From contig NC_010175.1 in the NCBI RefSeq assembly GCF_000018865.1, forward strand, positions 1,984,001-2,048,000: 64,000 nucleotides of DNA. Direction: 5' to 3'. The notes below the pieces were generated by a model. The model was not told the DNA's origin. It saw only the letters and a program-made list of their open reading frames with translations, and did no database searches. A program made the position numbers and the translations under genes. Origin of the DNA: Chloroflexus aurantiacus J-10-fl. Lineage in GTDB: Bacteria; Chloroflexota; Chloroflexia; Chloroflexales; Chloroflexaceae. Shown here piece by piece: positions 6,531 through 62,903 of this stretch (positions are counted from its first letter, which is position 1; every line of letters begins with the position of its first letter).

Positions 6531-6536
6531 ACATAA

Positions 6537-42253: not shown

Positions 42254-42279
42254 CCCGGTATCGTGTAAATGATACCGGG
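42254..42279 (-). terminator. terminator-like hairpin of the flippase gene
   Basis: CCCGGTATC (42254-42262) with GATACCGGG (42271-42279), an 8-base loop. Read on the minus strand, an AT-rich run (CAATTATTATTAA) follows. It lies 69 bases after the flippase stop. Confidence 0.5.
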
Positions 42280-42347: not shown

Positions 42348-43877
42348 TCACGGCTCAGGCTGCACCGCACGCAATTTCCCGCGCAGGAAGGGGATACGTT
42401 CAATCACCTTGCTCAGCGCGTCTTTGATGATCGTCATATCTTCGTCAGGCAATGCCCGCAGTGCCAGTACCAGCCCCACGTATACGACTGCCCCTAATGG
42501 TACACCGAGGAAGAAGAAGGTCGAGTCACGTAGCCACCAGATCGAGAGAACCATCCCTACCCCGGCCATGCTCGTGAGTAATCCTGCTCGCCAGTTTTGG
42601 GCATTGAGCGTGCCTCTCGGCAGCAGCTTTATTGCGGCAATCAAGATGCCTAATTCAGTCACCGTGTAGGCCAGTGCGCCACCCAAAGCGCCGTTCCCAA
42701 ACACCTGATCGGTCCAGGGCACCAGCACAAAATCCAACGGCAACGTCGCCACCGTCGCTGCGATCATGATCACATTGAGTGCCGCAGTTCGCTCGGCAGC
42801 AATCAACAACTGGCTCAGGACGGTGTTCAGGTAGGTGCAGATCAAGACCAGGCCTAACACCGCCAGCACCACCCCGGTTGGACGAAATGCTTCGCCGTAG
42901 AGTAATAGCGCAATCGGTTCGGCCAGCGCCAGCAATCCCAGACCGATGGGTATACTCAATGCCAGCATTATGTTAAAAATCGGACGGGCCGCCATCGTTA
43001 GATGTTCTTGGCCGGCGGCAAACCGGCGGGTTAAAGTTGGAAAGATCACCGTCCCAATTGCCACCGGAAAGAACATTAATGTACCGAACAGATTGACAGC
43101 AGTGCCATACCAGCCAACAGCTTCGGTCGAAGCAAACATGGCGATGAAGAGCCGATCAATCTGTTGATACACCATGAGCGTTAGTGCTGTCACCAGATAT
43201 TGTTTCGAATCGAGCAGCATTTGCTTTGCTGCTCGCAGATCAACTCGCCACTGTGGTCGGTGTTGGCGAAAGAGGAAAAATGCGTCGCCGAGGAAAGCAA
43301 CTACGGCTGCCAGCACATTCGCCCAGCCGATCCAAATTACATTAAAGCCGGCAAAAAGCAAGCCAAGGCTGACGACCGTCAGCACAATCTTGCTTGCCAC
43401 CGTCACCAGCGATACATAATGCGTCTGCTCCAGACCGTTCAGGGTTGCAATCAGCCCACCACTCAACACCGAGAAGAGGGTCATGAGACCAATGATCCAG
43501 ATCAGTGCCGTCTGGGTCGGATCGGCAGAGACGGCGGCCAGATCATAGCCAAAGACGGCCAGACAACCGAGAAGCCACAGAGCGGTGCGTACCAGCAGAC
43601 TGGTTGTTACCAGGGTACCGGTACGATGGGGTTCACGGGCCACCGCCTTTGTGAGGTAGGTGTCCATGCCAAAGGTGATCAACACACCGACGATCATCCA
43701 GATCGAGAGGGCAATAGAGAGCTGACCGATTGCCAGCGGTCCCAGAATACGAGGCTGAAAAATGGCCACCAGGAACGCCATTGCCCACGTCAGCAATTGT
43801 GCTGCCATCATTGCGCTGGCATTACGGGCCAGCCGGGCGCCACTGATCGGCGCCGGCGAGGTTGCATGGCTACTCAC
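42348..43877 (-). CDS. polysaccharide flippase (Wzx/MVF-like)
   Basis: A 509-aa integral membrane protein with about fourteen helices, of the oligosaccharide flippase (MOP) superfamily. The opening ARNASAMMAAQLLTWAMAFL and GWYGTAVNLFGTLMFFPVAIG are typical. It should carry lipid-linked sugar units across the membrane. The start is a GTG with GGGGAG seven bases upstream; it overlaps the glycosyltransferase stop as GTGA, so the two are coupled. The ATG-initiated frame 63 bases longer would run into the neighbour and is rejected. Confidence 0.8.
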   Translation of the reverse strand: MSSHATSPAPISGARLARNASAMMAAQLLTWAMAFLVAIFQPRILGPLAIGQLSIALSIWMIVGVLITFGMDTYLTKAVAREPHRTGTLVTTSLLVRTALWLLGCLAVFGYDLAAVSADPTQTALIWIIGLMTLFSVLSGGLIATLNGLEQTHYVSLVTVASKIVLTVVSLGLLFAGFNVIWIGWANVLAAVVAFLGDAFFLFRQHRPQWRVDLRAAKQMLLDSKQYLVTALTLMVYQQIDRLFIAMFASTEAVGWYGTAVNLFGTLMFFPVAIGTVIFPTLTRRFAAGQEHLTMAARPIFNIMLALSIPIGLGLLALAEPIALLLYGEAFRPTGVVLAVLGLVLICTYLNTVLSQLLIAAERTAALNVIMIAATVATLPLDFVLVPWTDQVFGNGALGGALAYTVTELGILIAAIKLLPRGTLNAQNWRAGLLTSMAGVGMVLSIWWLRDSTFFFLGVPLGAVVYVGLVLALRALPDEDMTIIKDALSKVIERIPFLRGKLRAVQPEP

Positions 43878-44842
43878 GGTAAAACTCCCCTGTGTGATGG
43901 GTCGGCACCAGCCACCCGATCTGGTGCGATGTAGCAACACGTTTCAGGATTGATTTGGTAGTTCAGGCTTTTGCGTAAGCCAACGAAGGGGTAATAAAGC
44001 TGATCGAGGCCCAACAGCACTTTATCCCGGCGATGCCACTTGATAATTCCCGAAGCAATCTGGCGCAATCCCTGACTAAACAACCATTCGGCCAGGATCA
44101 CAATGCCACCTGTATCGCCGCAGCGCAAATATTTGCCGGCAACTGCGCCGGCACCAATGCCGTAGGCGCGAAAGCTGCGTCGTGCACCTTGCCAGCTTTG
44201 CCAGTGGTGATGATAGGCGATTGCCTCTGGGGTGAAGACGATTCGTCCACCAGCCTTCAATGCTCGATACCCCAGGTCGCGCTCTTCCCAGGCACCCAGC
44301 GGCGCGCCGGCGCCGATCAATTCATCAAAGCCACCGAGTCGTTCAAAGGCATCACGGCAAGCACCCATGTTATGGCCATGACCGAACGCTAAATTGAAGC
44401 GATTGTGCTGAAAAACATGACGGGAACCATTGCACGTTCCCAGCACCAGTTCATCGGCACCCTCTTGATGCGGCCCCGGTAAAACAGCCCCGAATGCCAG
44501 CCAGGTCTGCGGATCGTGTAGCTCTGCAACCAGGGCGCCAATCCAGTTCGGATCGAGCACGCAGTCATCATTCGTAAACAGAATGTACGGCGTATTCCCC
44601 ATTGCTACGCCGGCATTACGGGTCGCCGAAATGCCACGCACGGGTCGCCGCACATACCGGATACGCTCATCAGACTCGGCATGGGAACGTACACATTGTT
44701 CGGTTCGATCATCTTCGCTCTGATCAAGCACCCACAGGATGAATTGCGAATAGGTACTCCGCCGTAAGCTGGCAATAGTGGCATCAATCGCTGCCCCTCG
44801 CCCATACGTTGAGATCACGACATCTACGGTTGTCGTATTCAT
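43874..44842 (-). CDS. glycosyltransferase family 2
   Basis: A 322-aa GT-A enzyme: VDVVISTYGRGAAIDATIASL at the start (residues about 6-26), WVLDQSEDD, the nucleotide-sugar metal motif as FTNDDCVLDP (about 89-98), and an acceptor-side GAWEERDLGYRALKAGG (about 178-194). Membrane helices are not evident, so it works at the inner membrane face, adding a sugar to a lipid-linked chain. It is coupled to the flippase downstream by GTGA overlap, so they likely serve the same polymer. Confidence 0.85.
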   Translation of the reverse strand: MNTTTVDVVISTYGRGAAIDATIASLRRSTYSQFILWVLDQSEDDRTEQCVRSHAESDERIRYVRRPVRGISATRNAGVAMGNTPYILFTNDDCVLDPNWIGALVAELHDPQTWLAFGAVLPGPHQEGADELVLGTCNGSRHVFQHNRFNLAFGHGHNMGACRDAFERLGGFDELIGAGAPLGAWEERDLGYRALKAGGRIVFTPEAIAYHHHWQSWQGARRSFRAYGIGAGAVAGKYLRCGDTGGIVILAEWLFSQGLRQIASGIIKWHRRDKVLLGLDQLYYPFVGLRKSLNYQINPETCCYIAPDRVAGADPSHRGVLP

Positions 44843-44999: not shown

Positions 45000-45386
45000 T
45001 TATGCAGTGCGCCGAAGTGCCTCGCCGCGGAGTTGCCGCTCTACTTCGTGAATCAGATCGTCCGAGTCGACCGGTTTGGTGAGGAAGGCGTTGACTCCAA
45101 CGCCGGCTGCTTTTACTGCATCCCGCTCTTCAACACTACCGGTAACGATAATGACCGGTATACCACTAAAGCGTTCATTGGCGCGCATTTCACGTACCAG
45201 CTCAATGCCATCCATCCGCGGCATCGTCAAATCGGTGACTACCAGATCGACGGCATACGTATCCAGGTGACGTAAAGCCTGGACACCATCGATAGCGGTA
45301 ACCACTGTATAACCGTACTGTTCGAGGACAAAACTCATCAGCCGATGGCTGGGAACGTAATCATCAACTATCATAATTGTCGTCAT
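45000..45386 (-). CDS. single-domain response regulator
   Basis: A 128-aa CheY-like receiver. IMIVDDYVPS at the N-terminus carries the acidic pair, D52 in VVTDLTMPRMDG is the phosphorylation site, and K104 follows in FLTKPVDSDDL. No output domain is present. GGGGAG precedes the ATG, and the gap from the upstream kinase gene is five bases. It closes the seven-gene string that starts at 51742 and could feed phosphorylation signals into the partner switch. Confidence 0.9.
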   Translation of the reverse strand: MTTIMIVDDYVPSHRLMSFVLEQYGYTVVTAIDGVQALRHLDTYAVDLVVTDLTMPRMDGIELVREMRANERFSGIPVIIVTGSVEERDAVKAAGVGVNAFLTKPVDSDDLIHEVERQLRGEALRRTA

Positions 45387-45391
45387 AACGT

Positions 45392-45832
45392 TTATCTCCC
45401 CGATACCAGATACTTCACCAAATGCCAGTAGTTACCATCCGCACGCGATGTATATGCAACGTGATCCATCAAGTGACGGATTAAGAAGAGGCCATAGCCA
45501 TGAATTTGGGCTTCGACCAGATTGGGTTGTGGTACCAGCTCCGGATCAAACGAATCACCCGTATCATGCAACTCAATCTCCAGGCGAGCCGGCTGTGGAT
45601 GCAAGACGAGTGTCACTCTGATCCGATCCTCACCGTTTTGCCGATTGTGATAGGCATGGCTAACGATGTTTGTGCAGACTTCGTGGGCTGCGAGCTGTAT
45701 ATTGTATACCAGCGTTTCATTGACTGCATCTACCTGTCGGAGCAACTCTGCAATTGTTTCGCTCAGGAGATGCAAATAGGCATACCGGGCCGGCAGATCG
45801 AGCCGGATCACTTCCTTGTGTTGCAGGCTCAC
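45392..45832 (-). CDS. RsbW-like anti-sigma/serine kinase (HATPase)
   Basis: A 146-aa GHKL ATPase of the RsbW/SpoIIAB type. The N-box is LAAHEVCTNIVSHAY, the G1 box HDTGDSFDP, and the G2-like GYGLFLIRHLMDHV. Such proteins phosphorylate STAS antagonists on serine and, when free, hold a sigma factor or other target. The start is a GTG that overlaps the phosphatase stop (GTGA). No sigma factor lies nearby, so its target may not be one. Confidence 0.85.
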   Translation of the reverse strand: MSLQHKEVIRLDLPARYAYLHLLSETIAELLRQVDAVNETLVYNIQLAAHEVCTNIVSHAYHNRQNGEDRIRVTLVLHPQPARLEIELHDTGDSFDPELVPQPNLVEAQIHGYGLFLIRHLMDHVAYTSRADGNYWHLVKYLVSGR

Positions 45833-47352
45833 AGCGCCGCTCCTTTGATTACGATGATTGTCTGATCATCATCCTGGGGATGACCGGCACTAAACCGATC
45901 AACCACGCTAAATAAACCATCGGCAATTGCCCGTGCCGGTTGTTCGGCCAGCTCATCGACAGCCGCTAACAGACGATCAATCCCAAACAGTTCATCATCG
46001 GCATTGCGGGCATCGCTAAAGCCATCGGTGGCAACAATCAGCAGATCACCCGGCCTCATCGCCAGATAACGGTTTTGAAAGTTGTTCACCGGCAGTACAC
46101 CAACTGCTGTGTGGTCGGCTAACAGCAACTCTGCCTTACCGTGGCATGGCCGGTAGATGACCGGGGCATGACCGGCATTGGTATACATAATTTCACGATT
46201 GCTGTGGTCATACTGACCAACAAAGATAGTTGCAAAGACGCCGATCCGGGTAAAATCGTTGTACAGATCTTCACTGGATTGCCGCATCACCGATGCCGGC
46301 GTCGGCGATGGCATAAATTGCGCTTTGCTATGCAGGGCGGTGCGGGTCATCGACATGAGCAAAGCGGCAGAGACCCCTTTGCCACTTACGTCGCCAATCG
46401 TGAAGATGAAGGGGTGATTGGGGATGTTGATAAAATCGAAGAAATCACCCCCCACCTGGAGTGCGGGCCGCGAATATGCGTAAATGTCCAGACCGGCTAC
46501 TTCCGGTAATGTGCGGGGCAAGAGATCGGTCTGGACACGCCGGGCCAGATCCATCTCACTGCGTAGTCTGGCCTGCTCAACCATTTCCTGGTACAGGAGA
46601 ATCCGCTCAATTTGCGCGCTAGCCTGATCGGTAATCGCACGGCCTAATTTTAGCTCCGGTGTGCCAAAGCCTTCGGCACGATCAATAATCCCCAGGCTCG
46701 CCATCATCATGCCGCGCACCCGTATTGGCAGCAGCAGTAAGTTGTGAACGCCGGGTGGTCGTCGCAAATCGCCATCATCTTCTCTGAGCAGCAGTGGCCG
46801 ATCTTCTGTCTGTAGTTGCCAATACAGGCGCCAGATGACCTCGTTGTTCAAGCCGCAGGCTGAAGATTGCACGACAATCGGTTCACCACCATTGGCAGCA
46901 ACATACGTTGCAAACCCGGCTCGCCCTTTGAGCATGCGAAGTGCTTCATTGACGACGGCCTGGAGCGTTTCACGAATGGTTACCAGATCGCGCATGGCCT
47001 GGGTTAATCGATACAACGCCAGTTGCTGATCCTGACTGGTAACCAGATCGGCGGTCATGCATTGCAGTTCATGCTCAAGCTGGACGATATAGCTAATCAG
47101 CCCCGCCTCTGCCTGTAACCGCTGCCGTGCTGCCTCGTCGCGTAAGCCGGTCAGTCGCAGTTCACCGATGACTTCATCGTAGCGATAGATAGCCGCTGTC
47201 AGATCAGGCGGGAGCATACGCTGACCTGCCGGCCAATAGGCCAATGGACGCCCCTGTTCGTAAACGCCAAACGTTTGTGCTCCCTGCGCTAACCAGGCCT
47301 CGGCCATGGCCTGAAAGCGTGTATACTGCGAGCTGAGCAACGAGACGAGCAT
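45829..47352 (-). CDS. GAF-containing SpoIIE/RsbU-type PP2C phosphatase
   Basis: A 507-aa protein: an N-terminal unassigned region, a helical linker, a GAF-like domain (about 135-265), then a SpoIIE phosphatase (about 290-507) with GGDFFDFI, TIGDVSGKGVSAALLM, TNAGHAPVIYR and RPGDLLIVATDGFSDA, all metal aspartates being present. It should dephosphorylate the STAS protein. The ATG at 47352 has GAGAGA six bases upstream and is preferred over an ATG at 47370 that has none. Confidence 0.85.
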   Translation of the reverse strand: MLVSLLSSQYTRFQAMAEAWLAQGAQTFGVYEQGRPLAYWPAGQRMLPPDLTAAIYRYDEVIGELRLTGLRDEAARQRLQAEAGLISYIVQLEHELQCMTADLVTSQDQQLALYRLTQAMRDLVTIRETLQAVVNEALRMLKGRAGFATYVAANGGEPIVVQSSACGLNNEVIWRLYWQLQTEDRPLLLREDDGDLRRPPGVHNLLLLPIRVRGMMMASLGIIDRAEGFGTPELKLGRAITDQASAQIERILLYQEMVEQARLRSEMDLARRVQTDLLPRTLPEVAGLDIYAYSRPALQVGGDFFDFINIPNHPFIFTIGDVSGKGVSAALLMSMTRTALHSKAQFMPSPTPASVMRQSSEDLYNDFTRIGVFATIFVGQYDHSNREIMYTNAGHAPVIYRPCHGKAELLLADHTAVGVLPVNNFQNRYLAMRPGDLLIVATDGFSDARNADDELFGIDRLLAAVDELAEQPARAIADGLFSVVDRFSAGHPQDDDQTIIVIKGAAL

Positions 47353-47362
47353 GGAAGTTCTC

Positions 47363-47701
47363 TCAGGCATTCAAAACGGACAGTGCATGATCGGCATCAA
47401 CAAAAATAGTGAACGCTTTGTCGAGTCTGGTCAGTTCAAATATCATTAACACGGGCCGTCGCAGACCACACAGCGCAAATTCGCCTTGTCCCTGCTGGCA
47501 ACGCTTCAATGCCGAAACCAGGGTTGCCAGAGCGGTTGAGTCAACAAACGTCGTTTCGCTCAGATCAACCAGTACCCGTGCCCCAGGTGCGCCTGTCGCC
47601 TGTTCCAGCCACTGTTGGACCGGTGGTACTGTATTGGCATCAAGTCGGCCTGTAATGGCAAGGACTGCCACATTCCCGACCATCCGTGGCTTCATTTCCA
47701 T
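47363..47701 (-). CDS. STAS-domain anti-sigma factor antagonist
   Basis: A 112-aa SpoIIAA-like protein. The switch serine is S55 in TFVDSTALATL, the position phosphorylated in the family. The end (TRLDKAFTIFVDADHAL) resembles the STAS ends of the fused glycosyltransferase. It is expected to be phosphorylated by the RsbW-like kinase and dephosphorylated by the SpoIIE-type phosphatase in the same operon. AAGGAGG precedes the ATG; 57 bases with no terminator separate it from the upstream gene. Confidence 0.88.
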   Translation of the reverse strand: MEMKPRMVGNVAVLAITGRLDANTVPPVQQWLEQATGAPGARVLVDLSETTFVDSTALATLVSALKRCQQGQGEFALCGLRRPVLMIFELTRLDKAFTIFVDADHALSVLNA

Positions 47702-47758
47702 AGTCTAAATCCTCCTTAAGTAGCGCAAACTGCCGGTTAGTGACGGCGACAAACTGAC

Positions 47759-49462
47759 CTATCGGTTAGGTGGCAGGGTCAGATCGGGTGTCAATGACGA
47801 TCTGACAGTCTGATGCGCCTTTGTTACCCGGCGTAGCCAGGCAACCGGGGTCCGAACCAACAGGTCAAGGTCTCTTCGCCACGAGCGTGTCGCGCTATAG
47901 TATACATCGGCAATAATCACTGTATCGAGATCATCGGATGAAGCCTGAACATACCACAAACCGGTCACTCCAGGCGGCACATCGTGCCGTCGCTGCTGCC
48001 ACTCTTCGTTTAACAGCGCTGCCTCATTTGGTGTCAGGGGTTTGACGCCGACCAGTTGCAAGTCGCCACGCAGGACACTTAAGAGTTCTGGTAAACGATG
48101 CAATTCATACGTTTCCAGCCATCTACCAAACCAGCGGTAGCGCCCGTCTGCGTGGCGCGTGTGCCAGCGCCAGAGTGTGAAAGGCCGCAGAGTCATGTGA
48201 CCATCAGGCAAGATAATTCGTTCACCAATCCGTGCGACCCCCACCAGTGGTCGTCCACCACTCCCCAGAGCAGCCAGGATACCCGTCAGTAAAAACAATG
48301 GGCTGAGCAGGATCAAGAGCAGAAGCGCAGCGAGCCGATTCAGGAAACTGGCAAATCGCCCAACGCTAGCGGTCACTGCTGAAACCCGCCCGATGAGAAA
48401 GGCGTCGACAATTGCCGTCTGCTCACCGGTATCCGGGTCTACAATCATCCCAGGATAGACAATCCGTTGATTGAGATTGACCAGTTGTCCCACGTAGGTG
48501 TCGCTCCACACAATACTGGCCGTGACGGTGGCTTCATCATCGACCATACAACCGCTACCGATGACCGTTCCCGTGCCGAGTTCAGCCTCACGCCCGATCC
48601 AGCAGTTGTCGCCAATGTACAGGGGGGGCGCAATCCGTACACTCGGATGGATCGAATCGTTACGCCCAACCCAGATGCCTGGGGCAATTTTGCGTCCGCT
48701 GAGCGAAGGGTAGCGAACCGTGTCCGCAGGTCCGTCGGTGAGGTTGGGATCAAGTGCTCGATAGGCGCTGTAGAGGAAGACCTGTTGAGCTGCGTAATAG
48801 TCGGTCAGTGTCGTGAGCGGATTCCAGTAACCGCTGAAGGTAAAATTCTGTACCGGTGTTTGCCCGGCAATCAAGCGCGGTAGCAGATCGGTGGCGATAA
48901 CACAACGACTGCGCAGCGGGATGTGTTCAATCAGCGCCGGCTCAACAATATACGCTCCGGTAAGGGCAACGACATCAGCCCCGGTTGGTGTTTCGAGCAC
49001 GGCACCGATCTGACCATCAGCCGCGACCACGGCATATGGTGTGGCCTGATGCGGGTGAGGTTGATGGGTAATCGCCGTCAGCAGTGCTCCCTGCCGCTGG
49101 TGATGATCAAGCGCTGCTTCTATCGCAACATCAATAATCGCGTTTCCCGGAATGACCAGACAGGTCTCGTGAATAAGGGGCGCTGCCCAGCGCAGCGCAC
49201 CGCCATCTGCCCACGCTTCGTTCAGTGAAACGTACTCGATATCAACACCCCAACGTCTGCCACTACCGAACACCGCAGTAATGGGAGCACTCTGTTCGTG
49301 GAGCGCAATCAGAATACGTTTGATACCGGCGCGGGCCAGAATTTCAATCGTGGTCGCCATCACCGGGCGGTCAACAATCGGTAATAACACATCAGGTGCA
49401 ACGTCGGTTAAGGGGGCCAACCGACGCTCTTCAGCCGTAGCAATGATGAAAGCAATAGTCAT
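47759..49462 (-). CDS. fusion: nucleotidyltransferase-like / beta-helix / sugar-transferase
   Basis: A 567-aa three-part protein. Residues 1-235 have the fold of a sugar nucleotidyltransferase, but the Gly-rich signature is ATAEERRLAPLTD, the usual P-K-x-L is PDVL, and the metal aspartate region is VIPGNAI; the catalytic residues look lost. Residues 258-345 are a left-handed beta-helix (WVGRNDSI, YIGDNCWIG). A membrane helix (about 373-399) leads to a bacterial sugar-transferase-like domain (about 405-545, RYRWFGRWLE, PPGVTGLWYV), where DELPQ is HRLPE and GPRP is GVKP. It may be a scaffold or regulatory relative. AAGGAG sets the start, four bases after the WecB-STAS gene. Confidence 0.78.
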   Translation of the reverse strand: MTIAFIIATAEERRLAPLTDVAPDVLLPIVDRPVMATTIEILARAGIKRILIALHEQSAPITAVFGSGRRWGVDIEYVSLNEAWADGGALRWAAPLIHETCLVIPGNAIIDVAIEAALDHHQRQGALLTAITHQPHPHQATPYAVVAADGQIGAVLETPTGADVVALTGAYIVEPALIEHIPLRSRCVIATDLLPRLIAGQTPVQNFTFSGYWNPLTTLTDYYAAQQVFLYSAYRALDPNLTDGPADTVRYPSLSGRKIAPGIWVGRNDSIHPSVRIAPPLYIGDNCWIGREAELGTGTVIGSGCMVDDEATVTASIVWSDTYVGQLVNLNQRIVYPGMIVDPDTGEQTAIVDAFLIGRVSAVTASVGRFASFLNRLAALLLLILLSPLFLLTGILAALGSGGRPLVGVARIGERIILPDGHMTLRPFTLWRWHTRHADGRYRWFGRWLETYELHRLPELLSVLRGDLQLVGVKPLTPNEAALLNEEWQQRRHDVPPGVTGLWYVQASSDDLDTVIIADVYYSATRSWRRDLDLLVRTPVAWLRRVTKAHQTVRSSLTPDLTLPPNR

Positions 49463-49466
49463 CGGT

Positions 49467-50984
49467 TCAGGCTCCTTCAGTGGCTACAGAGGTGTCAGGC
49501 AAAGGTGCCGTTGTTGCCGCCGTGACATCTGGAAAGATGTGTAAGACCTGATCGAGGCGTACCAGTTGCAGTGTCCGCAGCACATCGTGTGAACAACCGG
49601 CAAGGCGGAGGGCGCTGTTGTGCTCGCGGGCAAGTCGGTCGAGTTTGACCAGCGCAGCCATGCCGGCACTGGCCATAAAGGTCGTACCACTGCAATCGAT
49701 AATCAGACGTTCGCCTTGATCAAGTTTTGCGCTGGCTTCGTTCAGGAAGGTGGTTGCGGTTGCCGCATCAAACAGGCGCGGTGCAGATATAATCGTCCAG
49801 CCGTGCGTTGTGGTTGACGATGCCGGCAGGGGGTGTTGTTCCTGAGTGATCCGGTCTGCGATGGCCGACAAATCAGGAAAGCGCTCAAAGAAGCGATCCA
49901 GTTTGAGCAAGTCGAGAATGCGGAGAATTGGTTCCTGCACGTTAAGCAGGAACAGATCGCCGCCTTTAGCGCGCGCCTGCTTGGCCAGAGCAACCAGGGC
50001 GCCAAGTGCTGAACTGTCGAGAAATTGGGTCTGGCTCAGGTCGAGAATGAGATAATGCTGTTCACCCAACAGTCGGTACGCTTCCTGTCTGAATGACTCC
50101 AGGTTATTAACGTCAAGGCGATGCCCGACAGTCAGCACCGGCCACGGTATTGGTGGGGCTGCCGGCTCGATTGGTGGCGGCACCTGCGCTGGTTCCGGGT
50201 TGGGCACCATACTCAGGGCACTTCCCCGTTGCATTGCCCACCACTGCCGGAAAAAGAAATACCCGAAGTAGACAAAATCGTGAACATATCGCTTCCACAA
50301 GCGGCGAGGTTCCTGGACGAGTCGGTACACCCATTCCAGCCCACTGCGTTGCATCCACAGCGGGGCGCGTTTGGTAACGCCAACGATCATGTCAAACGTA
50401 CCACCAACACCAATGGCAATTGGTACCCGCAGATCATGGGCGTACATGCGAATCCACTTCTCTTGTTTCGGGTTACCGAAAGCCACCAGCAAAATATCTG
50501 GTTGGGCAGCCTTCACCGTCTCGACAATCGAGCGATCCATTTCCAGGACTGAGCGGGGGGGTGGCGACAGAACACCGGCGACTTTAAGTCCGGGATACCG
50601 CTCTTGCAAGATAGCTGCTGCTTTTGCCGCTACGCCTTCCCGCGCACCCAGAAAGAAGATCGAATAACCGCGCTGGGCTGCCCGTTCAGCCAGTGCCGGC
50701 ACCATATCGGCCCCGGTGACGCGCCCCGGCAGTGGCCCTCCCAATAGCCTTGATGCCCAGACCAGCGGCATCCCATCGGCAGTCGCCATATCCGCCTCTT
50801 GCAAGATACGCCGTAGTTCGGGATCGTGCAGCGCATTGACCACAAAATCGGCGTTGACCGTCGCAATCTGATGGAGACGACCGGTTGCCCGACCTTCCGC
50901 GATAAACTCATCGCAGCGATCAAGCGCCTCAGCCATGGTCAAGTTATCAATCGGCACACCCAGAATAACGAGCAGTTTGCGCAT
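49467..50984 (-). CDS. WecB/TagA/CpsF glycosyltransferase fused to two STAS domains
   Basis: A 505-aa fusion. Residues 1-250 are a complete WecB/TagA/CpsF enzyme: ATVNADFVVNA, the catalytic-region ADGMPLVWASRLLG, LLVAFGNPKQEKWI and GVGGTFDMIVG. A Pro-rich linker (263-281) leads to STAS 1 (about 283-375) with FLDSSALGALV, S324 in the phosphorylatable position, and STAS 2 (about 395-490) with FMASAGMAALV, where the Asp before the serine (S439) is Ala. The transferase likely adds a ManNAc-type sugar to a lipid carrier. GGAAGAA precedes the ATG; 14 bases from the sugar transferase gene upstream. Confidence 0.85.
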   Translation of the reverse strand: MRKLLVILGVPIDNLTMAEALDRCDEFIAEGRATGRLHQIATVNADFVVNALHDPELRRILQEADMATADGMPLVWASRLLGGPLPGRVTGADMVPALAERAAQRGYSIFFLGAREGVAAKAAAILQERYPGLKVAGVLSPPPRSVLEMDRSIVETVKAAQPDILLVAFGNPKQEKWIRMYAHDLRVPIAIGVGGTFDMIVGVTKRAPLWMQRSGLEWVYRLVQEPRRLWKRYVHDFVYFGYFFFRQWWAMQRGSALSMVPNPEPAQVPPPIEPAAPPIPWPVLTVGHRLDVNNLESFRQEAYRLLGEQHYLILDLSQTQFLDSSALGALVALAKQARAKGGDLFLLNVQEPILRILDLLKLDRFFERFPDLSAIADRITQEQHPLPASSTTTHGWTIISAPRLFDAATATTFLNEASAKLDQGERLIIDCSGTTFMASAGMAALVKLDRLAREHNSALRLAGCSHDVLRTLQLVRLDQVLHIFPDVTAATTAPLPDTSVATEGA

Positions 50985-50998
50985 GGTGTTCTTCCCGG

Positions 50999-51742
50999 TC
51001 AGTAAGCACCTCGTCCCAGCAGAACCGCCGGAATGGTGCGTAACAGAATTTCAATATCCTTCCAGATGCTTTGCTCGGCAATATATTGCAAATCCAGCTC
51101 AACCCAACGCTTAAAGTCGAGATCGCTTCGCCCTGACACCTGTTGCAAACCGGTGATGCCAGGAATGGCGTGCAGGCGCCCGATCTGCTCATAGGTATAT
51201 TTCGCGACTTCGCTCGGTAAGGCAGGGCGTGGCCCAACCAGACTCATCTCGCCTTTCAGTACGTTAAAGAGTTGTGGCAATTCGTCGATACTGAGCTTCC
51301 GGATCACCCGACCGACTCGGGTTACACGCGGGTCGCGCTTCATCTTGAATACCGGGCCATCGGCTTCATTTTTGGCCTGCAATTCGCGCAGCCGTTGCTC
51401 GGCATCAACGTACATCGAGCGGAATTTATAACAATAGAAATGTTCGCCATCTTTGCCGACACGCACCTGTTTGAAGATCACCGGTCCCGGTGACTCGAGT
51501 TTGATTAACAGTGCTGTCATCAGCATGATTGGCGACGTCAAAATAATCGCAATCACCGCAACCGTCACATCCAACACTCGCTTAAGACGTGAGAGCAGTT
51601 TGGTACGAATCACCCACCACGATAAGGCCAGTCGCAAACGCTGATTGGCGCGGGTGCGCTGAAAACGACGCTCGGCAAAGATGGTGAGCATGCGCTCTGT
51701 CTTATTATCAAGATGGTGCGATTTCGGTTTGACAACGTTCAT
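50999..51742 (-). CDS. polyprenyl-phosphate sugar-1-phosphate transferase
   Basis: A 247-aa enzyme that starts polysaccharide assembly by moving a sugar-1-phosphate to undecaprenyl phosphate. One membrane helix (about 54-80, VTVAVIAIILTSPIMLMTAL), then the catalytic core: YKFRSMYVDAEQ, RKLSIDELPQLFNVLKGEMS (split about 158-177) and LVGPRPALP, with PGITGLQQVSGRS near 208. The N-terminus is charged and short, unlike WbaP, which has four extra helices. The ATG of MNVVKPKSH has GAGG upstream. First gene of the seven-gene string. Confidence 0.9.
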   Translation of the reverse strand: MNVVKPKSHHLDNKTERMLTIFAERRFQRTRANQRLRLALSWWVIRTKLLSRLKRVLDVTVAVIAIILTSPIMLMTALLIKLESPGPVIFKQVRVGKDGEHFYCYKFRSMYVDAEQRLRELQAKNEADGPVFKMKRDPRVTRVGRVIRKLSIDELPQLFNVLKGEMSLVGPRPALPSEVAKYTYEQIGRLHAIPGITGLQQVSGRSDLDFKRWVELDLQYIAEQSIWKDIEILLRTIPAVLLGRGAY

Positions 51743-52460
51743 AGCAGGGTACCTCACTCGTTTCGTGACCACTCTCACTATACCCCATCGAACGAACAAA
51801 TTCCTTACAACGATTGAGTTATCAGTGAAGAATATGTCACTCGTAACACGCCATCACTGCCAGAGCTGCCTGTATCCTATGCTGAAGTGTATACATCTAT
51901 AGTACTATGCAATTCGTACAAATGCAGTCTATATGACGAAGATTGTAGCCAGGCTATCAGTAGAAAACCAGGACCTCATTACACGTCTCTATCGGGTGCG
52001 TTGCGCGGGGCATTCCCTCTCCCGGTCGGGTTTGCACAAGCTACAGGGTATGTAGCGATGGTTAAACAACGCTCACGATCACCCCGTAGTTTACGATGAA
52101 ACGTCGTAGTAATGTATGGATCGTCGCTTCTAAACCTTTTCAAAGGTCTGTCGTGAAACAACTTCTCTCCTCACCCCTTTTTCAGTGCTTTTTCTCTTTA
52201 TCGAAAGATCCTCCAGGCTGGTTGTCTATCCACCAAGCATGCAAACTGTCATTATCGAACCTTACCGTTTCTTCATAAAACATTGTTCAAATATGGTCAT
52301 TATTGCCCTGTTGTCGCATTACAATGCTATCTGGTCTACGTATATACCACTCAACCTCTAACCATTCGTTTGTCAGATTACTGTGGCACTGTATATATAG
52401 TCAGTGTATTATCGCTGTTACGCTCATTCCGGTTATCGTTGTAGTCAGATGGAGTTCTTC
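51743..52460. other. AT-richer intergenic region between divergent EPS transcripts
   Basis: About 720 bases with no convincing gene. It should hold promoters for both directions; one plus-strand promoter is listed at 52370-52397. The base composition is less GC-rich than in the genes. Confidence 0.45.
52370..52397 (+). promoter_or_regulatory. promoter upstream of the GH-A lipoprotein
   Basis: TTGTCA (52370-52375), a 16-base spacer, TATATA (52392-52397). Predicted start near 52404. Confidence 0.45.
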
Positions 52461-54065
52461 ATGACATTCCTGTGTCGTTTCTATACGATGATTCTGGTGT
52501 TCATTTTGGCAGGGTGCAACGCTCCTGTTGCCACGCCTGGATCAACCACGACGCCGGTTGCTGCACCGACGGCAGTCCTACCGACCACGGCAGCTCCTAC
52601 GTTACCGGCTGCAACCTCCATCAGTAACGTACCCACAATTGTGATCGATCCAACCACTGCGCAACCTTTTGATCGCCGGTTGCTGGGCACCAACGTCCCG
52701 GCGTGGTTGAGTCCTTACCGGCTGAACGACGAGACGTTTATTCAACGTACTGCCGATCTTGGACTGAGTCTGTTACGCATGCCAGGAGGAAGCTGGAGTA
52801 ATGGCTATGCCTGGGCAGCCTGTGAAACCGGTGGTGAAGAGTGTTACTGGCCGTGGGCGGCCAAACCATCCGATTTTCTGCGCTTTGCCCGTGCAGTGAA
52901 TGCTGACATCATCTGGACAGTCTCGATCAATGGTTCAGCGCAAGAGGCAGCGGCACTGGTTGCCTTCTTCAATGGCACCGTTGATGACCAGCGACCGATA
53001 GGGGTTGACGCTCGTGGCCGCGACTGGCAGACCGTCGGTTATTGGGCCAGGTTGCGCGCCGAGACCGGTAGCACCGACCCTTTCCCGGTACGGTATTGGG
53101 AAGTCGGTAATGAGGTGTACGGGGCAAAGGGCGAGGTTGGTCCAAATTGCTCTGAATGGGGGTGGGAAGACGTCTGGACATGCGATCCCGATGAATATCT
53201 GCGCGGCAAAACGGTCAATGGTATCGCTTATGATGGCTATCTGGCTTTCTACGACGCGATGAAAGCGGTTGATCCAACCATTCAGATTGGTGCCGTTGGC
53301 GTTGAAAAGCCTGATGAGTGGAGCGATTGGGGGAATCGGGTGATTGCTGGTGCCGGTGATAAGCTCGATTTTTATGTGGTGCATTACTATCCATACTTTC
53401 AGCCCCCAGAGAATCCGCGTGGTGCCCTCCAACAACCGCAACGAAGCTGGTCAACTATTATGACCGAACTTAACAACGCCTTTGAGCGCCATCTGGGGCG
53501 ACGGGTGCCAGTAGCGGTCACTGAATACAATCTGATCGCCTTCCAGGACCTCGATAACGCTCAGTTGATGCGGCGGGGAGTTAATCTGCTCTTCATTGCC
53601 GATACGATTGGGCAGATGGCAACGCATGGCGTGGTGATAGCCAATCAGTGGGATTTAGCCAATGGACGTGCTGCCAACGACACCGATTACGGTCTTCTCC
53701 ACGCCGATACCTTCGAGCCGCATCCTCAATATTACGCTCTGCTGATCTGGCGCGATTTCGGCGATGAGATGCTCTCTGTTCAGACAACATTTGATCCGGC
53801 GACAACGTTAAGTGTTTATGCCGGACGACACGCCGATGGAACACTGACACTACTGGCGATCAACAAAACCGACCAGCCACTTGTTGCGGCCATTGGCTTA
53901 CCCGAAGCTGAATGGCAGGTGAAAGCCACCACCGTGAGCGCCAGCGATCTGTTAGCCGAGACCGTATCTGTCAATCGTGACGAAGCACCAACTGCCCATA
54001 CTCCGGATCGTGTCTATACGTTTGCTCCATATGCGGTGACCTTCTTAACCTTTACCAGTCCATAA
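52461..54065 (+). CDS. secreted clan GH-A glycoside hydrolase-like lipoprotein
   Basis: A 534-aa protein: lipoprotein signal with LAGCNA near residues 16-21, a Thr/Pro/Ala-rich spacer to about 55, then a TIM-barrel hydrolase. WEVGNEVYG carries the Asn-Glu acid/base pair of clan GH-A; VAVTEYN, about 130 residues on, supplies the nucleophile. The layout recalls alpha-L-arabinofuranosidases (GH51) and GH39 enzymes. The C-terminal beta-sandwich is consistent with GH51. It probably trims the cell-surface polysaccharide. GGAG six bases before the ATG sets the start. Confidence 0.72.
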   Translation: MTFLCRFYTMILVFILAGCNAPVATPGSTTTPVAAPTAVLPTTAAPTLPAATSISNVPTIVIDPTTAQPFDRRLLGTNVPAWLSPYRLNDETFIQRTADLGLSLLRMPGGSWSNGYAWAACETGGEECYWPWAAKPSDFLRFARAVNADIIWTVSINGSAQEAAALVAFFNGTVDDQRPIGVDARGRDWQTVGYWARLRAETGSTDPFPVRYWEVGNEVYGAKGEVGPNCSEWGWEDVWTCDPDEYLRGKTVNGIAYDGYLAFYDAMKAVDPTIQIGAVGVEKPDEWSDWGNRVIAGAGDKLDFYVVHYYPYFQPPENPRGALQQPQRSWSTIMTELNNAFERHLGRRVPVAVTEYNLIAFQDLDNAQLMRRGVNLLFIADTIGQMATHGVVIANQWDLANGRAANDTDYGLLHADTFEPHPQYYALLIWRDFGDEMLSVQTTFDPATTLSVYAGRHADGTLTLLAINKTDQPLVAAIGLPEAEWQVKATTVSASDLLAETVSVNRDEAPTAHTPDRVYTFAPYAVTFLTFTSP

Positions 54066-56354: not shown

Positions 56355-57395
56355 ATGGTACGGTTGATCGTTCTACGACTATTGGAAAGCTTCTTCCGCC
56401 GACCTTTGTTCAGTCTGGCACCGTTTGTGCTCGCACTGTTGATCGGTGTCGGATACATTTTGTTCTCACCGCCTGAATATCTCTCAAGTGGAAAGATTTA
56501 TGTCGAAAAGGAGAGCCTGCTGGCGTCCTTAACCTCATCAAATAGTGATGTCTCATGGTGGGTAACTCCAGCTCAGGCAACCTCGAATGAGATTTACGAG
56601 TTGCTGGCGACGAACACCTTCGTTCGTTCAGCGATCCAGCAAACCAAGCTCGAACCTCTAATGGCCGGTGGACCAGATGTCGTCTGGGAGACGTTTACCT
56701 TCTTCCGTGAAACTATTAGTGTGAATACACTCGGTGATAAGCTGGTTGAAATTCGCGCTACCACCGATGATCCAGAGCTTTCGTATCAGATGGTTGTCGC
56801 AACGATGGACACCTATCTGAAATGGAAGATGAACAACGATTTTCAGGAAAGCATTGCGGCGCAAAAGTTCTTTGAAGAGCTGATTGCGCCGTATCAGGCC
56901 GATGTTGACGCTGCTCGCCAGGCATTGATCGATTTTCTCAGTGCGAACCCGGAACCGGTACGCGGCGAGCGGCCGCCCGGTGAGCAATTCCAGCTCGATC
57001 AGTTGCAGGCAGCGCTGGCCCGTGCCGAAGAACGGTTGAGTGCCGCCCAGGAGAACGAGGAGAGCGCTCGTCTGGCGCTGGTGAAAAACGAGAGTTTGAT
57101 CCGTCAGACCTACCAGATTATCGACCAGCCTGAGATTCCATTGCGTGCCGAATTTTCCATCACCGGCTTCATCAGGAATATGGTGATATTCGTGGCGATA
57201 GGTGTCTTCCTGTCGGCCAGTCTGATCGGCGGTGGTGCGTTGCTGGATCGCAGTCTCCGCTTTCCCGTTGATGTGCAAAACGGCCTTGGAGTACCATTGC
57301 TGGCACTGGTGCCATTCAGCAAGGAAGTGTCAGTTCCTGCATCTACCACAGCACCGGTAGAAGCTGAACAACCTTCACTCCAACCACAAGTGTGA
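56355..57395 (+). CDS. Wzz/KpsE-like chain-length regulator
   Basis: A 346-aa polysaccharide co-polymerase of the Wzz type. Membrane helices lie near residues 18-37 and 273-297; the loop between them is outside the membrane and contains a coiled-coil region (about 190-245). SGKIYVEKESLL and the start of a second helix (IRNMVIFVAIG) are as in the family. It should set the length of a polymer made by the ligase/polymerase two genes downstream. AAGGAG precedes the ATG. First gene of a plus-strand EPS set of four or five. Confidence 0.82.
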   Translation: MVRLIVLRLLESFFRRPLFSLAPFVLALLIGVGYILFSPPEYLSSGKIYVEKESLLASLTSSNSDVSWWVTPAQATSNEIYELLATNTFVRSAIQQTKLEPLMAGGPDVVWETFTFFRETISVNTLGDKLVEIRATTDDPELSYQMVVATMDTYLKWKMNNDFQESIAAQKFFEELIAPYQADVDAARQALIDFLSANPEPVRGERPPGEQFQLDQLQAALARAEERLSAAQENEESARLALVKNESLIRQTYQIIDQPEIPLRAEFSITGFIRNMVIFVAIGVFLSASLIGGGALLDRSLRFPVDVQNGLGVPLLALVPFSKEVSVPASTTAPVEAEQPSLQPQV

Positions 57396-57463: not shown

Positions 57464-58246
57464 ATGTTTGGATTTCGGAAGAAACCGACCAGTGTAGCAG
57501 AGAGTGAACTCCCTTTGACCATTGAGGTGGTCGGTGAGAACCTGCGCCGTTCTTTTGCCGGATCGCAGGTTGATCAGATCCGACGCATGCTGACCGATTT
57601 GCTGGTCGAACAGCGTCTCCCCAGCCGTGTCGGGTTTACCTCAGCACTGCGCGGTGAAGGTGTCAGTTACATTACGCTGGCCAGTGCGGCTACGCTGGCT
57701 CACGATACCGGTAAACGAGTATGCGTTTTGGAACTCAACTGGCTACATCCGGGGCTGCTGAGTAATCTTAATCCACCCCCACCAGTCAGTAAGCGTGACC
57801 GTCGTCAGGCAGCGGAATCAGTGTCACGCTCATTACCACCACGTCCTGGTGTTGCTGAGGTGTTGCGTGGGCAGGCATCACTGGCAGAGACATTATTGCC
57901 AACCAACTATGCCGGCCTGTTTCTCCTGCCGGCCGGTTCAACAACTGCCGATCAGCGACCGCTCCTGGCCCGCAGTCCTGAATTACGGATGCTATTGGAA
58001 ACGCTCGATGCCCAATTTGATTACATCTTGTTTGATATACCAGCGGTACTCGAAACAAGCGATACGTTGGCCCTCGTGGCGCTCACTTCTGCCTGCGCCC
58101 TGGTGGTTCGTCACGGTGTGACACCAATCACCGAGGTTAAGCGTGCTCTAAATGACATTAAACACGTACCGATTCTTGGTGTTATTCTTAACCAGGCGCA
58201 GATTGCAACCCCGCGCTGGATACATCGCCTGATCCCACAGGAGTAG
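57464..58246 (+). CDS. CpsD/CapB-like protein with degenerate Walker A
   Basis: A 260-aa P-loop protein of the BY-kinase type that partners Wzz-like proteins. The region SALRGEGVSYITLAS stands where SALPGEGKST is expected: the Walker A lysine is Val67. The following Walker A' is CVLELNWLHP (about 87-96), where the usual acidic pair is replaced. Walker B is kept (YILFDIPA, D191). There is no C-terminal tyrosine cluster. It likely does not hydrolyse ATP normally and may be structural. GAGG lies eight bases before the ATG. Confidence 0.8.
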   Translation: MFGFRKKPTSVAESELPLTIEVVGENLRRSFAGSQVDQIRRMLTDLLVEQRLPSRVGFTSALRGEGVSYITLASAATLAHDTGKRVCVLELNWLHPGLLSNLNPPPPVSKRDRRQAAESVSRSLPPRPGVAEVLRGQASLAETLLPTNYAGLFLLPAGSTTADQRPLLARSPELRMLLETLDAQFDYILFDIPAVLETSDTLALVALTSACALVVRHGVTPITEVKRALNDIKHVPILGVILNQAQIATPRWIHRLIPQE

Positions 58247-58426: not shown

Positions 58427-59962
58427 ATGCTTGATCTACTTGTTCCACGCTATCCCGATGTGATGACGATTGCCCGCCGCAATGAGCGGCGCTGGTGGAT
58501 ACTATTCCTGGTGGTTTGTGTACTCACCGGCGTGATTGTGGTGTTACTGCGTCGTCGGATGAGTCCTGAGTCAGTACTTGCTTTTCTGATCTTTGGCGGT
58601 GTCCTGATTGCCACTGCAATTCAGCCCCGTTTTGGTGTATATGCCATTTTAGGGCTGACGCTCTTTGGTGATCGCTCGCTCCACCCCTGGTACCCCTTTA
58701 CGAAAAATCTGTCGAGTCCCGAGTCGATTATGTATGTCTCCGACTCGTTCTCACTTAGCCCCCAGGAGCTGGCAATCGTCTGGACACTTGTAGTCTGGCT
58801 GGTGCGAGCAGCGACAGAACGGCGCCTACGCATCCATTTTGGGCCTCTCTTTTGGCCGGCAGCGATTTTTCTGGTGTTTAACGCTATCGGATTGGTGTAT
58901 GGTCTGGCCAATGGCGGGAATCGGGTGATAGCACTGTGGGAGGTTCGATCCATCTTCTATCTTCCCCTGATGTTGTTGCTGGCCGGTAATTTAATTGAAA
59001 CCCGTGCTCACTTGAATACCCTGTTCTGGGTGGCGACAATTGCTCTGTTTGCGAAGGGGGTCGCCGGCGTCTGGTACGTCCACGATGTGTTGAAGTGGGA
59101 TCTGGCAGGGGTGGAACGTATCGCCGAACATGCCATGTCGATCCATTTCAACTTCTTCTTCGTGCTGTTGGTTGCAGCATGGCTCTATCGCGATAGCGCG
59201 ACCCGTCGTTTCTCGATGACTTTAATGGCACCGTTTGTGCTCTTCAGCCTGGTTGCCAACTTTCGCCGGGCCGGATTTCTCACCCTTGGCATGGCGCTCG
59301 GTCTGATAGTGCTGCTCCTCTACATCGAGAACCGACGCCTCTTCTTCATCATTGCCCCAACCGGTGCGGTGAGTTTGCTGGCGTACCTGATCGTTTTCTG
59401 GAATAATCAAGGGCCAATCGGCATTCTGGCCCGGGCTGTTCGCTCGGTTATTGGCCAACCCAGTGCCCGCGATGCGGCATCGAATGTGTACCGTGATTTA
59501 GAGAATATCAACATTATGTTTAATATTCGCATGTCGCCACTCACGGGTATTGGATTTGGTAATAAATTTCACATGATCGTCCCCCTCCCCGATATTAGTG
59601 TCTTCGAGTGGTGGGAATATATCACCCATAACTCAATTATGTGGGTCTGGATGAAGATTGGGGTGATTGGGTTTTACGGCCTCATCCTTCTATTAGCATT
59701 GACGATGCTCTACGGTGCCCGCATGGTGCGCCTGATGCCATACGGTCAATTGCGCGTCTTTGCTCTGACGGCCACCCTCTACATCTTTACCCACTTTGTC
59801 TACGCCTATGTCGATATGTCCTGGGAAAACGGTAGTATGGTCTTTGTAGGCACGATGATGGGAGTGATTAACGCCTTGCCACAAATTGCCACAGAGAAAC
59901 CTCTCCCGGTTCGCCCCTGGCGAGTGTTTTCATCCCAACCGGTAACGAATAATACCGCCTGA
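58427..59962 (+). CDS. O-antigen ligase/polymerase-like membrane protein (Wzy/WaaL)
   Basis: A 511-aa membrane protein with about eleven helices and a larger outer loop near 330-400 that ends with the first helix of the last group. FRRAGFLTLGMALGLIVLLL, followed by the loop, fits the Wzy_C family (O-antigen ligase or EPS polymerase). It should join repeat units or attach the polymer. The start has a weak GGTGAA site. In order Wzz, CpsD, small protein, Wzy this is a typical Wzy-dependent polymer set. Confidence 0.78.
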   Translation: MLDLLVPRYPDVMTIARRNERRWWILFLVVCVLTGVIVVLLRRRMSPESVLAFLIFGGVLIATAIQPRFGVYAILGLTLFGDRSLHPWYPFTKNLSSPESIMYVSDSFSLSPQELAIVWTLVVWLVRAATERRLRIHFGPLFWPAAIFLVFNAIGLVYGLANGGNRVIALWEVRSIFYLPLMLLLAGNLIETRAHLNTLFWVATIALFAKGVAGVWYVHDVLKWDLAGVERIAEHAMSIHFNFFFVLLVAAWLYRDSATRRFSMTLMAPFVLFSLVANFRRAGFLTLGMALGLIVLLLYIENRRLFFIIAPTGAVSLLAYLIVFWNNQGPIGILARAVRSVIGQPSARDAASNVYRDLENINIMFNIRMSPLTGIGFGNKFHMIVPLPDISVFEWWEYITHNSIMWVWMKIGVIGFYGLILLLALTMLYGARMVRLMPYGQLRVFALTATLYIFTHFVYAYVDMSWENGSMVFVGTMMGVINALPQIATEKPLPVRPWRVFSSQPVTNNTA

Positions 59963-62332: not shown

Positions 62333-62903
62333 TCACGCCATCGGTGGTGTCAGCGTGCTAGAGTCGGTGCTCAGCACCTGCATCTGTTTGCGCAGCGCCA
62401 GGACAGCCCGATAGAGGAGGGTCTTCGTCGCCTCCTGGCTGCGTCCCAGTTGATGGGCTATGTCGGGCAGGGCGAGCTGATACTGATAGCGCAAGAGGAG
62501 GACTTGCCGGTACTGGTCTGGCAGTCGCTGCAACGCCACGTACAGGGTCTGCCGATCGCTTTCCGCAATGAAGCGACTGTCCAGGTCAGATGATGTATCG
62601 GTCACCGTTGTGCCGGTGAGGGGTACCGTGCGCTGGGGATGACGCAGGACGTCGACGACCAGGTCACGCGCCACGCGGAAGAGCCAGGCGCCTACCGGGA
62701 CACCACGGTCTTCAAAGGTGGGGGCACGTTCGAGCGGGCGGGCAAAGACCTCGTGATGCAGGTCGAAGGCCAGCTCAGGATCACCCAGGCGCCGCAGGAT
62801 GGACGCATAGAGCCGACGAGCGTAGGTGGTGTATAGCCACTCGATGACGTGCGGATCCCGGGCACGCAGCCCAACGATGAGGTCGTGGTGGGTTGGGGGG
62901 CAT
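62333..62903 (-). pseudogene. ECF sigma factor with frameshift at the start
   Basis: Read without its first codons, this is a complete ECF sigma factor of about 185 residues. Region 2 is IEWLYTTYARRLYASILRRL through VGAWLFRVARDLVVDVLRHP; region 4 is LPDQYRQVLLLRYQ through LALPDIAHQLGRSQEATKTL. The ATG at 62903, with GGAGG five bases upstream, opens a different frame because the C tract after it has six C; with five it would join the sigma frame (MPPTHHDLIVGLR). No other ATG, GTG or TTG lies in the sigma frame before the GTG at 62674, deep in region 2. It may be inactive, a sequencing error, or phase-variable. No anti-sigma gene follows. Confidence 0.7.

Follow-up and report, generated by a model that had tools for sequence, protein, structure and literature searches.

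Introduction

RsbU/RsbV/RsbW and SpoIIE/SpoIIAA/SpoIIAB are partner switches of Bacillus. Here we describe a gene set that resembles them in Chloroflexus aurantiacus J-10-fl, in what we call the window, meaning the whole 64,000-nucleotide stretch that was analysed (NC_010175.1; G000:C1:1984001-2048000 of a genome of 5,258,541 bases). On the minus strand of the window, between positions 45000 and 51742, a string of seven genes runs from a priming phosphoglycosyl transferase, through a glycosyltransferase with two STAS domains and a fusion protein, to a solo STAS protein, a SpoIIE phosphatase, an RsbW-like kinase and a receiver. Like the Bacillus switches, the string encodes a kinase, a solo STAS protein with an Asp-Ser site and a PPM phosphatase in adjacent genes. 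Unlike them, it holds no sigma gene, and glycan enzymes stand there instead, one of them bearing STAS domains of its own. We think it somewhat probable that this partner switch gates the first membrane steps of polysaccharide initiation post-translationally; we infer the phosphorylation, the binding, the control and its sign from gene content, gene order, conservation, and the loss and retention of motifs.

Described systems come close to parts of this gene set. SypA of Vibrio fischeri is phosphorylated at a conserved serine (S56) and encoded in a polysaccharide locus, and the portion of PMC4517449 used here reports no evidence of a sigma target and leaves its mode of action open. The STAS protein of the window likewise has a conserved serine and lies in what we take for a polysaccharide locus; the Vibrio pair differs in that SypE is both kinase and phosphatase, and SypA is a single STAS domain (PMC4517449). 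SiaABCD of Pseudomonas aeruginosa has a phosphatase and a kinase that share a pivot; when unphosphorylated, this pivot binds an enzyme and activates it directly, but that target is a diguanylate cyclase rather than a glycan enzyme, and the system as set out in the portion of PMC8457831 used here has no STAS-fused glycosyltransferase.

In Myxococcus xanthus, the single-domain receiver EpsW activates the priming phosphoglycosyl transferase EpsZ post-translationally (PMC12802240), an earlier example of a priming transferase under direct control. The best NCBIfam match of the window's glycosyltransferase is EpsA and that of its flippase is Wzx_EPS, both below cut-off. EpsZ differs in being a large monotopic phosphoglycosyl transferase (monoPGT) with an N-terminal part that the window's transferase lacks, and STAS goes unmentioned in the main text of PMC12802240. 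In Anabaena, all4160 is a STAS-bearing glycosyltransferase cited in connection with heterocyst envelope polysaccharide (PMC8256260); its STAS domain is N-terminal, whereas the pair in the window is C-terminal, and we liken the two by description, not by sequence. Lastly, GMPPA is a non-catalytic, GDP-mannose-binding regulator (PMC11228364), so that the GMPPA/GMPPB pair offers the case of a nucleotidyltransferase homologue acting as a regulator, with a fold match to the window's fusion protein; it differs in being an animal enzyme that is not fused to a phosphoglycosyl transferase.

The original prediction, made from the letters of this stretch, knew of no described system with this layout. We too found no description of such a gene set in the open PMC literature, outside which most subscription papers lie, nor any paper there that joins Chloroflexus with partner-switching. 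Its parts, on the other hand, have precedents, both in the STAS-fused glycosyltransferase of Anabaena (PMC8256260) and in switches with an enzyme or a polysaccharide as output.

The seven-gene string and its conservation

The seven genes open where the original prediction had placed them, and its coordinates and gaps hold. They are the priming transferase (Bac_transf; 50999..51742, 247 aa from an ATG, with a longer TTG frame from 51799); the WecB/TagA/CpsF glycosyltransferase with two C-terminal STAS domains (49467..50984, 505 aa, by Pfam and fold match); the fusion of NTP_transferase, hexapeptide and Bac_transf parts (47759..49462, 567 aa, by Pfam); the solo STAS protein of the anti-anti-sigma type (47363..47701, site D54-S55, TIGR00377 above cut-off); the GAF-SpoIIE phosphatase of the PPM type (45829..47370, Pfam 1.6e-40); the RsbW-like serine kinase (HATPase_c_2; 45392..45832, Pfam 1e-25); and the single-domain receiver (REC; 45000..45386, Pfam 6.9e-29). 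From priming transferase to receiver the gaps are 14, 4, 57, -8, -4 and 5 bases, the -8 between solo STAS and SpoIIE becoming +10 when the second Met of SpoIIE is taken as its start. Our scan found no minus-strand terminator-like site between the seven genes and three inside genes; overall it returned somewhat more sites than chance (15, against a mean of 9.5 and a standard deviation of 3.4 in shuffles). The string as described is confirmed.

We looked for the fused glycosyltransferase-STAS-STAS protein elsewhere by a pattern scan of one genome per species in 84,980 species, a scan that reaches close relatives only. It returned 28 loci, 25 of them with the STAS fusion. These are found in Chloroflexus, Oscillochloris, Chloroploca, Kouleothrix and other Chloroflexales/Chloroflexaceae, and further in metagenome-assembled genomes (MAGs) labelled Anaerolineae, Anaerolineales, Thermoflexales, Chloroflexi or unclassified. 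Within the phylum, the full fusion is present in at least 16 of 400 genomes, all in the window's order (up to three candidates scored per genome), and the full-length pseudoenzyme described below in at least 13 of 301 (up to four candidates per genome). The restriction of the gene set to Chloroflexota rests on the close-relative pattern scan and these two within-phylum scans.

In four of the 25 loci (L034, L038, L048 and L052) too little sequence follows the glycosyltransferase gene, which leaves 21 that are testable. Solo STAS, SpoIIE and RsbW genes follow in order behind the glycosyltransferase and fusion genes in 17 of these 21, namely 16 by the rule of the script and L041, where the kinase frame overlaps SpoIIE. 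The receiver is also present in 16 of the 21 (14 by the full rule, plus L040 and L041). The exceptions to the order are L050 and three Chloroploca loci, while L047 and L049 have too little sequence ahead of the glycosyltransferase gene for a priming transferase to show. Gene order is conserved far beyond chance, and on this point the comparison with relatives bears out the original prediction.

In five loci from genomes labelled Anaerolineae or unclassified, the gap between RsbW and REC was searched for a hidden second STAS, and held no STAS-like frame. Locus L049, from one MAG, has a PHP domain fused to STAS (FVDSAGLG; 5619-6728) inserted between SpoIIE and RsbW, a second enzyme-STAS fusion in the gene cluster.

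The switch proteins

A HATPase_c_2 serine kinase, a STAS pivot with a phosphorylatable serine and a PPM phosphatase are encoded together here, as in a partner switch. The Asp-Ser of the solo STAS protein is present in 20 of 20 aligned rows; the aspartates of the VGGDF, GD(V/I) and TDG motifs of SpoIIE are kept in 18 of 18, as is the Glu...Asn of the kinase N-box. A SiaA model also matches the SpoIIE protein, far below its cut-off. The best matches of the kinase are RsbW models, below cut-off (65.4 of 145 bits), and it matched only RsbW, RsbA and SpoIIAB models, with no RsbT model among its matches; with these matches, membership of a stressosome was not adopted.

A second candidate case, an unfused WecG near two HATPase_c_2 kinases in the same genome (G000:C1:3202205-3205800), was rejected, the proximity being put down to chance. 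The corresponding region of the related genome G001 has a gene that looks carboxylase-like by eye between them, and the kinases sit with a STAS-like gene of their own. In G001, a Chloroflexus relative with the switch genes only, SpoIIE is spread over two overlapping frames (L095, 9810-11337), which may reflect decay or an assembly error.

A glycosyltransferase with a STAS pair

The WecB-STAS-STAS protein matches TagA with a TM-score of 0.88 by target length, and its STAS folds are matched as well. Its residues T42, D70, R221, R228 and R232 are invariant in 18 of 18 rows and align with T37, D65, R214, R221 and R224 of TagA, whose roles are given in PMC6493773. In fold and catalytic residues, the protein belongs to the WecB/TagA/CpsF class.

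In the STAS motif, the serine that follows the aspartate is the phosphosite. The first fused domain (STAS1; residues 283-372, minus strand 49869..50138) has the site D323-S324, and the Asp-Ser pair is present in 25 of 25 rows and also invariant in alignment A1. The second (STAS2; about residues 391-492, minus strand 49509..49814) has S439 with no preceding Asp; at these columns Ser is found in 24 of 25 rows and Asp in 0 of 25. The aligned SpoIIAA motif reads Asp-Ser-Ser.

A C-terminal appendage is proposed to drive TagA from an inactive dimer to an active membrane-bound monomer (PMC6493773). In the window's glycosyltransferase this appendage directly precedes the linker to STAS1, which would make it the obvious point of action for the STAS pair; the linker itself (residues 254-277) is modelled with low confidence.

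WecG-type domains also occur in long frames from another family of the phylum, G415:C178 (713 aa) and G349:C161 (681 aa), which are possible other WecG fusions.

A priming transferase with catalytic residues and an apparent double pseudoenzyme

The 266-aa frame of the priming transferase matches the Bac_transf model of Pfam at 3.6e-69 and EPS_sugtrans above its cut-off (304 vs 295.55 bits). For monoPGTs, the residues listed in PMC12802240, in PglC numbering, are the dyad D93-E94, the substrate residues K59, R88 and R111, and the structural DX12P and D168; PMC10653937 names the DE dyad and a uridine-binding PRP. With columns assigned from motifs by the analyst and the residue list of PMC12802240, the priming transferase has the catalytic Lys/Arg/Asp-Glu/Arg, and the listed residues are kept in 20 of 20 rows, except for the Pro, which is kept in 19 of 20. 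The large monoPGT class of EpsZ, in which an N-terminal helix bundle and a cytoplasmic domain come ahead of the catalytic domain, was considered and set aside, as the protein has 247 aa and covers only positions 265-458 of the 459 in the EpsZ model.

The fusion protein joins a nucleotidyltransferase-like part, a left-handed beta-helix and a phosphoglycosyl-transferase-like part. In the latter, alignment places His455-Arg456 (minus strand 48095..48100) in the position of the catalytic Asp-Glu dyad. Among 21 rows the E94 column has R in 20 and Q in 1, and D93 is kept in 3 and lost in 18; in all 21 rows R111 has become Lys and K59 is gone, and R88 is lost in 20, so that the protein falls outside the monotopic phosphoglycosyl transferases. 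Structural residues are kept, D168 in all 21 rows and the helix-breaking Pro in 20; 9 of the 21 retain the Asp of DX12P.

Nucleotidyltransferases have as their signature the loop GxG[ST]RxxPxTxxxPK and two metal Asp residues. In the fusion protein none of the 21 rows has the second loop Gly, the Lys or the second metal Asp, while the first metal Asp is kept in 14 of 21 and the loop Arg in 5. The 15 reference rows, drawn from 16 loci, were chosen for carrying the loop motif, and an unbiased contrast is therefore limited to the Asp columns. The best fold matches by Foldseek are tlr0611, GMPPB/GMPPA and VTC1-KJC2; the AlphaFold model has a pLDDT of 71.6, with most of residues 267-367 (the beta-helix) poorly modelled. 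Judged by its residues, the protein is an apparent double pseudoenzyme, presumably inactive in both enzyme domains, and a new and strong element of the gene set.

A distant locus, L092 in G130 (7411-9594), has a STAS gene that lacks the Ser and, behind it, a nucleotidyltransferase-like/PGT fusion that keeps the catalytic Asp-Glu and has a degenerate nucleotidyltransferase loop. This hints that the nucleotidyltransferase died before the PGT, a hint of little weight because no second copy was found in 301 genomes at E<=1e-75.

Co-occurrence, split operons and rate correlations

Among 61 relatives, WecB-STAS is found in 25 genomes and the fusion protein (E<=1e-70) in 25, and 24 genomes have both; the match to the fusion is weaker in G013, and the G020 contig stops at the fusion gene. 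SpoIIE (E<=1e-120) is found in 24 of the 25 genomes with WecB-STAS vs 7 of the 36 without, the sole miss being G028, whose contig ends in the fusion gene. The 61 genomes are related, and their co-occurrence is therefore no test of independence.

In some relatives the operon is split. The three Chloroploca genomes have WecB-STAS beside family 2 glycosyltransferase (GT2) genes, in a stretch of 10 kb that contains none of the switch genes, which counts against a route through the fused STAS domains. Priming transferase, fusion and whole switch stand together in two of the three (L089 and L090); in the third they are found at the ends of two contigs (L091 and L105). In genus g12 (G018 and G029), the kinase gene is directly behind the fusion gene, and STAS-SpoIIE-REC is on another contig. 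Loss of the kinase in these two genomes was considered and rejected, given this position on a separate contig. In both splits, then, kinase and fusion gene are found in one cluster.

We also compared evolutionary rates, using pairwise distances corrected for the other components and label permutation, in runs of n=14, of n=24 and 21, and of n=27, the last with a jackknife and with subsets of 20 and 18; the priming transferase (BacT) and the WecB glycosyltransferase part (GT) were separate components. At n=27 the solo STAS protein co-varies with SpoIIE (0.72) and RsbW (0.42), SpoIIE with RsbW (0.59), and the priming transferase with RsbW (0.51) and SpoIIE (0.43). The GT part co-varies with the beta-helix (0.42; jackknife 0.17-0.47) and the pseudo-PGT (0.31), and STAS1 with the pseudo-nucleotidyltransferase (0.34). 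The n=14 run, for which GT, BacT and SpoIIE formed the background and which therefore leaves out BacT pairs, gave 0.68 for STAS1 and 0.46 for STAS2 with the pseudo-PGT; STAS2 had no clear partner in the n=24/21 run. As a lead, these values suggest two co-evolving sets, the priming transferase with the switch, and WecB-STAS with the pseudoenzyme. Such a pattern speaks against the exact route of the original prediction, which ran through the STAS domains of the glycosyltransferase.

The wider locus

The transcript probably extends past the receiver through a GT2 gene (minus strand 43874..44842, by Pfam), which also follows REC in L031, L032, L033, L132 and L133, and a Wzx-type flippase (minus strand 42348..43940; NCBIfam Wzx_EPS 4.2e-27, below cut-off). 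A terminator-like hairpin, by consensus match only, lies 3' of the flippase gene (minus strand 42254..42279). On the divergent plus strand are Wzz (56355-57395) and a Wze-like ATPase (57464-58246), both matched below the curated cut-off, and Wzy_C (58427-59962), matched above it. We read the locus from these matches as a polysaccharide cluster of the Wzx/Wzy type, with the rest of the pathway on its divergent side.

A 553-aa protein with a lipoprotein-like start (plus strand 52404-54065) is encoded beside the locus here and in L031-L033; it has no Pfam match and appears glycoside hydrolase-like by eye. Elsewhere in the window, a 1021-aa protein (minus strand 19150-22215) has G8, CEMIP beta-helix and weak cupredoxin-like matches.

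Discussion

The conserved co-encoding of the switch with enzymes that start a polymer and with a pseudoenzyme suggests that the switch probably controls polymer making directly. The kinase would phosphorylate the solo STAS protein and probably also Ser324 of the glycosyltransferase-fused STAS1, and the GAF-SpoIIE phosphatase would reverse this; the state of the pivot would decide the joint membrane work of the priming transferase and the second-step glycosyltransferase. The double pseudoenzyme would serve as a membrane-held receptor or scaffold, its dead PGT domain retaining the re-entrant-helix Pro and its dead nucleotidyltransferase domain perhaps binding a nucleotide sugar, and would most likely hold WecB via the fused STAS pair. 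There are two candidates for the main output of the kinase, the priming transferase/pseudoenzyme complex and the fused STAS domains, and we give them about equal chances. A more specific proposal, possible though in our view doubtful, is a dedicated gate on surface-polysaccharide initiation in which the pseudoenzyme, its dead PGT part embedded in the membrane, docks the STAS-tailed glycosyltransferase by the live priming transferase and reads the nucleotide-sugar supply, while switch and receiver open or close it. If true, this gate would be a partner switch whose output is lipid-linked glycan synthesis.

That the switch controls the polymer enzymes post-translationally, as the original prediction proposed, we regard as rather probable, in view of the gene order, the lack of a SigB/F/G factor above cut-off, the invariant Asp-Ser of STAS1, and the kinase that stays with the fusion gene. 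Its route through the STAS domains of the glycosyltransferase is weakened by the rate correlations, the switch-only genomes, L050, and the Chloroploca genomes in which WecB-STAS lies apart.

Several observations weigh against such control. At n=27 the kinase does not co-vary with the fused STAS domains (STAS1-RsbW -0.12, STAS2-RsbW 0.06), which weakens the case for these domains as its target. The correlation of STAS1 with the pseudo-PGT depends on the background and fell to 0.17-0.26 in later runs, and a pair across the two sets, pseudo-nucleotidyltransferase and solo STAS, is also positive in the n=24/21 run (0.30 and 0.25). The samples are small (n 14 to 27), the p-values ignore phylogeny, and each operon split is at most one event. 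The window genome has 19 HATPase_c_2 matches over cut-off, which makes the specificity proposed for this kinase a tentative one. In G036, WecB-STAS, fusion and switch stand together with no priming-transferase match beside them, which weakens the link between kinase and priming transferase, and in L050 the 8 kb that follow the glycan genes contain no switch. Four genomes (G001, G011, G026 and G033) have STAS-SpoIIE-RsbW-REC without WecB-STAS and the fusion in the genome, and no priming-transferase match in the stretch around the switch; the switch can thus serve something else.

The remaining points concern sigma factors, and with them the alternative that the switch acts on transcription. RsbW or the solo STAS protein would then target a sigma or anti-sigma factor elsewhere, the glycan genes would be only operon-mates, perhaps targets, and the fused STAS pair would serve another role. 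We consider this unlikely, although the best-known RsbW/SpoIIAB kinases hold sigma factors, and the window genome has five sigma-70-type genes that score 131-143 bits against the SigB/F/G model. The window also contains a sigma-70 r2/r4 (ECF-like) frame (minus strand 62333-62920) about 10.6 kb from the string, so that the earlier statement on the absence of a sigma factor holds for the string and not for its surroundings; no ATG, GTG or TTG start in this frame gives 120 aa or more, and it is either degraded or has an unusual start. Two of the four switch-only genomes, G026 and G033, have ECF genes 4-5 kb from the switch (L097, 2324-2920; L098, 15497-16093).

Against a transcriptional output, the SigB/F/G model has 0 matches over cut-off in the window genome, and the cognate factor of a sigma-directed switch is thus found neither in the string nor, at that cut-off, in the genome; other sigma-70 types may still be targets. 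When 57 loci (some the same place twice) were searched with the window's sigma frame and the ECF protein of G026, ECF-like frames appeared only in L097 and L098 and were absent from the 53 loci that are not switch-only, where other sigma types were not searched. Moreover, the operon splits leave the kinase with the fusion gene, and an enzyme-fused STAS keeps its phosphosite motif. On balance, a transcriptional output of the switch is less likely. That only two of the three Chloroploca genomes have priming transferase, fusion and switch together, that G036 has no priming-transferase match beside its cluster, and that ECF genes lie near two switch-only modules are points that weigh about equally against both candidate outputs of the kinase and against the transcriptional alternative.

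RsbR has its STAS domain C-terminal to a larger N-terminal domain, and RsbR-type proteins feed RsbT in stressosomes. A reverse flow of signal, in which WecB-STAS-STAS and the pseudoenzyme sense the supply of lipid-linked or nucleotide sugars and feed the switch as RsbR feeds RsbT, would fit this shared domain order, the resemblance of the pseudo-nucleotidyltransferase to the GMPPA and KJC2 folds, and the co-variation of WecB-STAS with the pseudoenzyme. It is nevertheless quite improbable, since the retained catalytic residues argue that the glycosyltransferase is not a bare sensor, and the kinase matches RsbW models and no RsbT. Least probable of all is that the fused STAS pair does no more than dock to the scaffold formed by the pseudoenzyme, with the switch genes as passengers whose output lies elsewhere, for although STAS1 co-varies with the pseudoenzyme rather than the kinase, and switch-only genomes exist, adjacency in most testable loci over distant relatives and the invariant Asp-Ser of STAS1 would be hard to explain.

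We return, then, to direct control of polymer initiation by the partner switch. The gene set is real and conserved, and the mechanism, read from genes and alignments, is plausible. The portion of PMC4517449 used here leaves open by what means SypA and similar STAS proteins control polysaccharide when no sigma factor is known for them. In the Chloroflexus locus, STAS domains are covalently joined to a glycosyltransferase with intact catalytic motifs, beside a kinase, a phosphatase and a conserved pseudoenzyme, and the question of the target can therefore be reduced to in vitro assays on seven proteins. If the proposed mechanism is true, it would extend direct control of polymer priming, as reported for EpsW and EpsZ, to serine-kinase switches.

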